A stretch of 24,451 nt of DNA from a virus. The position numbers and the translations under genes are program-made. The notes beneath the pieces are model-generated. The model made no database searches and was not told the origin of the DNA. It was given only the letters and a program-made list of their open reading frames with translations. Where the stretch lies: positions 1-24,451 of IMG/VR virus record IMGVR_UViG_3300025872_000296; one strand, 5' to 3'. Positions 1,537 to 5,331 of this stretch are shown piece by piece; position 1 is the first letter of the stretch; each line of letters starts with the position of its first letter.

Positions 1537-1554
1537 AGAGGGCGAAAGCCCTCT
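1537..1554 (+). promoter_or_regulatory. Intergenic RNA hairpin 1 with GAAA tetraloop, between the capsid genes
   Basis: AGAGGGC (1537-1543) pairs perfectly with GCCCTCT (1548-1554) around a GAAA loop (1544-1547): seven base pairs with a GNRA loop. It begins 5 bases after the stop of capsid copy A. No T-tract follows (the next bases are CCCTCTATGG), so an intrinsic terminator is unlikely. RNA stability, processing or translational control is more plausible. Its 3' arm shares bases with hairpin 2. Confidence 0.75.
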
Positions 1555-1568
1555 CCCTCTATGGAGAG
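1551..1568 (+). promoter_or_regulatory. Alternative hairpin 2 sequestering the Shine-Dalgarno of capsid copy B
   Basis: CTCTCC (1551-1556) is perfectly complementary to GGAGAG (1563-1568), leaving a 6-base loop. GGAGAG is the Shine-Dalgarno for the ATG at 1572. Hairpin 2 reuses bases 1551-1554 of hairpin 1, so the two cannot form together: hairpin 1 leaves the site open and hairpin 2 closes it. The pairing is visible in the sequence; regulatory use is inferred. Confidence 0.5.
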
Positions 1569-3999: not shown

Positions 4000-4494
4000 A
4001 TGGCTCTTCCCAACAAAGTTTTACCCGGCTTTTCAGCCTCTCTATACTGCCAGCCGGGGGCTACTCCAACTCCTTTAACCACCGCAGAACTTTCTACATA
4101 TGCAAGTGTTTCTGCAATTGCAATAGCTGGAAATCTTGTTCCGGTTGAGGCGATTCCCGCATTTGGACAAGACGATGCAGTTGCTAATTTCTCGGTCGCT
4201 GGCTCGCGTCAGTCTGACAAGATCCCAGTGCAATCTGCCCCAACTTCCATGACGGTTGTGGCCGCATGGAATCCAGCAAGCACAAATCTTCTTTTGCTTC
4301 GCGCTGACGCGTATAACGGAACCATAGATAGAACTTTTGTTATTGCCGCAACAGACGGTACCAACACTGTTTATTTTTCTTTCAATGGACGCGTAAGTCA
4401 ATGGACAATTGATCCTGCTCCGGGCGCAGAAGCTCAGGTTACTTTTACGATTCACCCGCGAGGAAACCAATATGGATGGCAAAACAACACTTGA
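4000..4494 (+). CDS. Major tail protein (tail tube subunit)
   Basis: 164 residues with GAGGTGAAAA upstream of the ATG. It is a beta-rich, Ala/Thr-rich soluble protein: MALPNKVLPGFSASLYC, VPVEAIPAFGQDD, a KIPVQSAPTSMTVVAAWNP strand, then a strand-rich C-terminus ending VTFTIHPRGNQYGWQNN. Tail tube proteins of siphoviruses have a similar length and 'T.T..........v.' end strands, and the gene lies between the terminator-like gene and the chaperone/tape-measure block, where the tube gene is expected. It polymerises around the tape measure. No Ig-like C-terminal domain is present. The reading frame of the next small gene begins within its last 23 bases. Confidence 0.75.
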   Translation: MALPNKVLPGFSASLYCQPGATPTPLTTAELSTYASVSAIAIAGNLVPVEAIPAFGQDDAVANFSVAGSRQSDKIPVQSAPTSMTVVAAWNPASTNLLLLRADAYNGTIDRTFVIAATDGTNTVYFSFNGRVSQWTIDPAPGAEAQVTFTIHPRGNQYGWQNNT

Positions 4495-4660
4495 TGATCT
4501 TGTAGCTTTGATGGCTAGCTTTCATGGCGATTTACACGCTATGGCAAAAGGGCATCCCTTTACCCTTCAAGAGGTGGATGCCGCCTTACAGGAAGCCAGC
4601 CCCGGCGGGGCCGAAGCCGTCTGTCTTTCAGTGTTGAGAGCTCATGCAAAGAGCGAGTGA
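4472..4660 (+). CDS. Small unknown tail-module protein (62 aa)
   Basis: The frame is open further upstream (4409) inside the tube gene, but ATG 4472 has GAGGA (4460-4464) at good spacing, so I start there. It overlaps the tube gene by 23 bases in the +1 frame. The product is acidic and helical (LDDLVALMASFHGDLHAM, FTLQEVDAALQEAS, AEAVCLSVLRAHAK) with no TM segment or signal peptide. I recognise no family. A tail-tube cofactor or small chaperone is possible from position only. A +1 frameshift extension of the tube protein is conceivable, but no slippery site is obvious. Confidence 0.65.
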   Translation: MDGKTTLDDLVALMASFHGDLHAMAKGHPFTLQEVDAALQEASPGGAEAVCLSVLRAHAKSE

Positions 4661-4868
4661 CGATCTGCTGGCTTACTTAGTCACGCAAGCCCAGACCGGT
4701 TCTAAAAACTGGTTTGGGTATCCTCAACAAAGGCTCATCAACATTAGCCTTTGCCACAAGATCGCAGAGAATCATGCGCCAGATATGACACCAGACGAAG
4801 TAGTTAATTATGTGATTCGTCTTAACGATCTGATCTTCAAAAAGATCGTGACAAATGGGAAAGATTGA
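4644..4868 (+). CDS. Small unknown tail-module protein (74 aa)
   Basis: It overlaps the previous gene by 17 bases, again in the +1 frame, with a weak GAGAG upstream of ATG 4644. The product is helical: SDDLLAYLVTQAQTG, YPQQRLINISLCHKIAENH, then TPDEVVNYVIRLNDLIFKKI. No membrane segment or catalytic motif is apparent and I do not recognise the family. The tight overlaps (14 bases into the next gene) suggest translational coupling with its neighbours and a role in tail assembly, which is inference from context. Confidence 0.65.
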   Translation: MQRASDDLLAYLVTQAQTGSKNWFGYPQQRLINISLCHKIAENHAPDMTPDEVVNYVIRLNDLIFKKIVTNGKD

Positions 4869-5331
4869 GGTTAAGGGCTTCCGAGAGTTTGAGGATTCGC
4901 TTTTAGAATTAGCTCAAGAATTCGGCACGACCAAAGCAAGGCGATCATTACTTCCCGGTCTTAAATCTGCGATGGAGCCCGTAAAAGCGGCAATCCGCGC
5001 AAGAGTTCCTGTCGATACTGGAAAGCTACAACTCAAGGTTCGCAACGGCGCGAAGGTTGCAACGCGTAAAGACAAGTCTAAAAAGTATCTTAGTCGCGAC
5101 ACGGTTGCTTTTGGGTTTGTCGATGTTGGCGTTGGCTACAGGGATGCTAAGGGTGAGTACAGGCCAGCAGCAGAGGCTATAGAATTCGGTACGGCAGAGG
5201 TTCCTGCTAAGCCGTTCATACGAAACAGTTTTCAATCAATGGCAAGCTCCGCTCTTGATCGGTTAGCGTCTCTCATGAGCGCTCACATGGATCTATGGGC
5301 GGCAAAACAACGAGCAAAGGTTAGAAAATGA
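4855..5331 (+). CDS. HK97 gp10-like morphogenesis protein
   Basis: 158 residues. The HK97-gp10_like family (TIGR01725) pattern is present: an N-terminal basic helix (LKSAMEPVKAAIRARVP), VPVDTGKLQLKVR, a Lys-rich loop, VGYRDAKGEYRPAAEAIEFGT, and PAKPFIRNSFQSM, where family members read 'EFGT...PAxPFxRPA'. In HK97-type phages this protein helps complete the neck and usually lies between the head closure and terminator genes. Here it is after the tail tube gene and before the chaperones, which is atypical. It overlaps the upstream gene by 14 bases and the G gene by 4 (ATGA). Confidence 0.8.
   Translation: MGKIEVKGFREFEDSLLELAQEFGTTKARRSLLPGLKSAMEPVKAAIRARVPVDTGKLQLKVRNGAKVATRKDKSKKYLSRDTVAFGFVDVGVGYRDAKGEYRPAAEAIEFGTAEVPAKPFIRNSFQSMASSALDRLASLMSAHMDLWAAKQRAKVRK

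Follow-up and report, generated by a model that had tools for sequence, protein, structure and literature searches.

The window, i.e., the whole stretch of DNA that was analysed, is a virus record of 24,451 bases that carries two neighbouring capsid genes, both on the plus strand, as are the RNA elements associated with them. Copy A (183-1532) encodes an HK97-fold major capsid protein of 449 amino acids (PF05065, E 1.8e-20; PHROG 10, major head protein), and copy B (1572-2600) encodes a second HK97-fold capsid paralog of 342 amino acids (PF05065, E 1.4e-21). The two proteins are 43% identical, and copy A contains an N-terminal extension of about 100 amino acids that is absent from copy B. With the Phage_capsid profile PF05065 the copies score 73.9 and 77.6 bits (curated cut-off 24.2), which places both in this family and confirms the sequence-only reading, in which the neighbours had been taken for two capsid genes. 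The gap from the copy A stop at 1532 to the copy B start at 1572 has 39 bases and contains GGAGAG (1563-1568), a plausible Shine-Dalgarno sequence for copy B. This motif is invariant in the clade of the window, which comprises 74 distinct sequences with copy B at least 88% identical (some of the fold analyses were made on 73). In several members of the clade, the linker before the Shine-Dalgarno sequence and the Shine-Dalgarno sequence itself form a tiny frame, ATG GAG AGA CTA TGA (1561-1575), which overlaps the copy B start (ATGA); TTG replaces ATG in other members.

Two hairpins can be drawn in the gap. Hairpin 1 has a 7-bp stem, AGAGGGC (1537-1543) with GCCCTCT (1548-1554), closed by the GNRA loop GAAA (1544-1547), and an energy of -12.8 kcal/mol. 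Hairpin 2 (1551-1568; -7.7 kcal/mol) pairs CTCTCC (1551-1556) with GGAGAG (1563-1568) across the loop CTCTAT (1557-1562), and is an alternative both to hairpin 1 and to the longer helix described below. The letters and coordinates of both hairpins are exactly those first reported, and bases 1551-1554 are common to the two, as expected of the mutually exclusive stems of an RNA switch. Hairpin 1 begins 5 bases past the copy A stop and is a GC-rich stem-loop on the sense strand at the end of a gene, as is the stem of an intrinsic terminator. It is followed by the pyrimidine-rich linker CCCTCTAT (1555-1562), at the place where the relatives have a T-run. In the clade C1555 and C1556 are invariant, the remainder of the linker is mostly variable in length or sequence, and the tail after hairpin 1 reads TCTCCCTC or similar. 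The window has only 3 T in 8 bases at this point, interrupted by C, where a standard intrinsic terminator has a T-run; a terminator scan of the window did not include hairpin 1 among the terminators listed, and by the T-run test it would not be classed as a standard intrinsic terminator. A search of Rfam 15 across the window gave no matches at gathering score.

The window holds 6 perfect stems of at least 7 pairs with a loop of 3-6 bases, compared with 6.5 in Markov resamples, and hairpin 1 by itself is unremarkable against chance. Its position and its conservation are remarkable. None of the 14 stem positions varies among the 74 clade sequences, and in the loop the second base alone varies, giving GAAA or GCAA, both of the GNRA type. 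Third codon positions vary freely in the same clade, with a mean entropy of 0.73 bits in copy A and 0.56 bits in copy B. The pairs of hairpin 1 never vary and therefore show zero covariation within the clade. When the clade hairpin was used as a plain DNA pattern in a scan of viral contigs, many unrelated phages were returned mixed with clade members, and the pattern is too short for diagnosis.

The equivalent position was then compared across the wider family, one of freshwater phages. Scans of viral contigs with capsid queries, together with one scan of genome contigs, gave 407 A-B junctions with 164 distinct gaps, of which 148 belong to distant relatives outside the clade (copy B at most 67% identical); one viral-contig scan fed the later clade analyses only, and not the set of 164 gaps. 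A stem is found at the equivalent A-B position in all 164 distinct gaps, which are de-duplicated yet related and come from metagenomic contigs. A hairpin of -10 kcal/mol or lower, in model energies, occurs in 98% of the 148 relatives and in 2.7% of shuffled gaps. The T residues were counted from the last G-C pair, since A-T pairs otherwise absorb the T-run and a stricter count misses it; on this basis 120 of the 148 relatives have at least 5 T within the 8 bases that follow. The combination of a folding energy of -8 kcal/mol or lower with at least 6 T in 8 is present in 79 of the 148 relatives, compared with 1 of 740 shuffles. On the coding strand of 78 loci, the 4.8 kb of A-B gap contain 58 terminator-like matches (12 per kb); in the flanking capsid and neighbouring genes the density is 0.01-0.06 per kb, about 200 to 1,000 times lower. 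The family element can thus be described, from its sequence, as terminator-like, with the anatomy of an intrinsic terminator and a constant place in the head operon.

The stem sequences differ among the groups of the family, and compensatory change is found inside alignable subgroups. An RNAalifold consensus fold of the mixed-family MAFFT alignment was without pairs, apparently owing to misaligned indels, and compensation was scored on ungapped or nearly ungapped subgroups in its place. In one subgroup, compensatory double changes affect 4 of 7 pairs, in 10 cells, a result reached by 0 of 500 shuffles. A second subgroup has one compensatory pair (14 of 500 shuffles on cells), and a third one, of five sequences only, has two, a count indistinguishable from that of shuffles (62 of 500). 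In the tree of the B proteins, the clade of the window is monophyletic with a support of 1.0 and its neighbours have T-runs, although the adjacent deeper node is weak (0.26). Because the clade is monophyletic and its neighbours carry T-runs, the simpler reading is that the T-run was lost in the clade. As judged from these comparisons, hairpin 1 is real, under selection, and the positional equivalent in the window's clade of the family-wide terminator-like hairpin.

The ribosome site of copy B appears in a different light once coding sequence is included in the fold. The Shine-Dalgarno sequence GGAGAG (1563-1568) then pairs with CTCTCC at 1606-1611, in codons 12-14 of copy B, and CCCT (1555-1558) pairs with AGGG (1615-1618). 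The complete element, helix X (1555-1618), was obtained from the consensus fold of 73 clade sequences and consists of the pairings 1555-1558/1615-1618, 1562-1568/1606-1612 and 1570-1571/1604-1605. In long-context folding helix X is dominant (P about 0.9 or more) in 66 of the 73 distinct sequences and coexists with hairpin 1 (P about 1 in most members), with hairpin 2 at P about 0. The proposal that hairpin 1 frees the Shine-Dalgarno sequence is contradicted by this model, as the site is paired with codons 12-14 of copy B while hairpin 1 is formed. Codons 12-18 of copy B have the lowest synonymous variation among 336 seven-codon windows (permutation p 0.01). Changes in the pairs of helix X are nearly all compatible with pairing, and all of them are one-sided, with zero double changes. 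By folding, the Shine-Dalgarno sequence is unpaired at a median of 0.11 in the clade versus 0.49 in the relatives. Helix X is not thermodynamically exceptional, as 237 of 1000 synonymous resamplings of copy B hide the site equally or better. Since the Shine-Dalgarno sequence pairs with codons 12-14, copy B is probably restrained in translation; the masking by helix X would be specific to the clade and would add to the control exerted at the transcript. A second stretch with very low synonymous variation in the clade lies at codons 22-27 of copy B (1635-1652), and in the consensus fold part of it belongs to a stem formed by 1644-1652 with 1659-1667.

The explanation that we regard as probable is a hairpin that attenuates transcription or forms the end of transcripts, comparable to T-phi of T7, to which the clade of the window has added the masking of the copy B ribosome site. 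In most relatives, some of the transcripts would end behind copy A, at the GC-rich stem and the T-run, and this partial termination would leave copy A abundant, with smaller amounts of copy B and of the head-tail mRNA downstream. The terminator-like hairpin of the family would have to be leaky, because only about 20-30 bases separate the T-run from the copy B start. A gap of this size is too short for a promoter, and copy B would therefore be supplied by read-through, as is assumed here, or by a promoter inside copy A. In the clade of the window the T-run would have become a C-interrupted tract, and for this reason hairpin 1 is probably a weak terminator, or acts mainly to protect the copy A messages at their 3' end. 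Copy B would probably also be restrained at translation through helix X. Hairpin 2 would be an alternative cover of the copy B site, which may form briefly while the left arm of hairpin 1 is occupied by a ribosome that is finishing copy A. The resulting A:B ratio would be put to use in the shell. The earlier suggestion that the hairpins set the ratio of the capsid proteins thus survives as a selected hairpin between the paralogs with a plausible effect on the ratio, the two-way switch that was to hide the site being supported only in part.

Two other readings are unlikely. The first is translational coupling through helix X, in which codons of copy B hide its ribosome site and ribosomes ending copy A melt hairpin 1 and so assist the opening, with B following A at a lower level. 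The consensus fold and the synonymous conservation agree with it, as does the cost of opening the ribosome site, which falls in 69 of 73 clade members when hairpin 1 is melted, by a mean of 2 kcal/mol. However, over 20 bases separate the stop at 1532 from the left arm of helix X, which a terminating ribosome should not reach; 24% of the synonymous resamplings hide the site equally, and helix X is missing in the relatives. From the models, some coupling of copy B to the translation of copy A is possible. In the second reading, hairpin 1 does not terminate and only stabilises or processes the copy A message, by shielding its 3' end or as a nuclease site. In agreement with this, a strong GNRA stem persists in the clade where the T-run is missing, but the T-runs found in most relatives indicate that the ancestral role was termination.

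Rather improbable is the switch of the sequence-only reading, in which hairpin 2 hides the Shine-Dalgarno sequence of copy B once a ribosome ending copy A has melted hairpin 1, and translation of copy A lowers copy B. Both stems are exact, and among the 74 clade sequences loop 2 differs in length and sequence, whereas the arms of hairpin 2, including C1555, C1556 and GGAGAG, are invariant. If the 5' arm of hairpin 1 is masked, hairpin 2 reaches a P of 0.55 in the window, with a median of 0.12 over the clade. However, 10 of the 12 arm bases are otherwise constrained, four by hairpin 1 and six as the Shine-Dalgarno sequence, which leaves two free, and shuffling the linker with the other two elements kept fixed gives hairpin 2 a chance probability of about 0.33. 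Moreover, helix X covers the site as long as hairpin 1 is intact, so that the site is not free, and the melting of hairpin 1 makes the site easier, not harder, to open in the 69 members mentioned above. The ribosome that ends copy A may thus shift the balance towards hairpin 2, as had been expected, with an effect on the site that is opposite in sign. As the model hides the ribosome site in both states, the stated direction of the switch is not reproduced; the two-way switch has partial support only, and the folding models contradict the direction proposed for it. Covariation in relatives had been named as a check: stems of the hairpin 1 type compensate in relatives, the arms of hairpin 2 never vary in the clade, and hairpin 2 is absent outside it (analogues of at least 6 pairs in 9 of 148 relatives, mostly A/T tracts). 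A short CTCT/AGAG hairpin beside hairpin 1, seen in a local fold of 1533-1580, was rejected, since it is broken in clade variants with a CTTTT linker and vanishes with coding sequence in the fold. It is hardly credible that the perfect 7-bp inverted repeat, invariant as it is in the clade, is a DNA site for a regulator, since the confinement of loop changes to GNRA and the pairing kept by relatives with unrelated sequences are what an RNA structure predicts.

Within the preferred reading of an attenuating hairpin with added masking, a further step is proposed only tentatively and is doubtful as it stands. In one clade, control of the A:B ratio would have moved from transcription, with the T-run of the leaky terminator lost, to translation, through the hairpin and helix X, with the place kept. 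The clade is a single lineage, and the loss of the T-run together with the buried ribosome site counts as one event. If true, the clade shows an element that sets a ratio and changes its level of control while keeping its place.

In phage T7, the leaky terminator T-phi immediately follows the major capsid gene 10, and genes 11 and 12 depend entirely on read-through for their expression (PMC5592923). The family element resembles it as a terminator-like element right after a major capsid gene that would be leaky and work alike, with homology not claimed. T-phi acts on T7 RNA polymerase and divides the capsid gene from tail genes, whereas the present element divides two capsid paralogs and its copy in the window is without a T-run. 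In filamentous phages, a partial terminator between gene VIII and gene III sets the ratio of the major to the minor coat protein. This is a closer functional parallel than T-phi, although the phage and its proteins are unrelated. Phage operons also make use of Shine-Dalgarno masking and translational coupling, with a ribosome site buried in local structure after the upstream gene; here, in contrast, the strand that pairs with the site belongs to the coding region downstream, and coupling is a candidate only. Many distinct sequences of freshwater phages have HK97-type paralogs in tandem with a conserved terminator-like hairpin between them, which suggests selection on the proportion of the two shell proteins.

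In the phage collection, a single relative is annotated, the Methylophilaceae phage P19250A (KX815270), with capsid paralogs that are 58% and 54% identical. It shares the gene order and the two capsid paralogs and has a GAAA-capped hairpin, GGGGAAG/CTTCCCC, between them (genes P19250A_0005 and P19250A_0006), but its gap has 77 bases with the tail TCTCTTTAATTAATTT and is without hairpin 2 or helix X. As a cultured relative, P19250A makes the capsid ratio and its control point concretely testable. Its second capsid paralog (KX815270, 6066-7124) is annotated as a hypothetical protein; the homologue in the window matches PF05065.

Contigs assigned to alpha-, beta- and gammaproteobacterial and to archaeal genome bins also carry the same capsid paralogs; these are probably phage contigs in the bins, and the host labels are doubtful. 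Elsewhere in the window, an apparent small frame (MQRASDDLLAYLVTQAQTG...) occupies 4644-4868, between the listed frames 4409-4660 and 4855-5331 and under the listing limit of 80 amino acids, and a strong hairpin lies inside it at 4690-4718.
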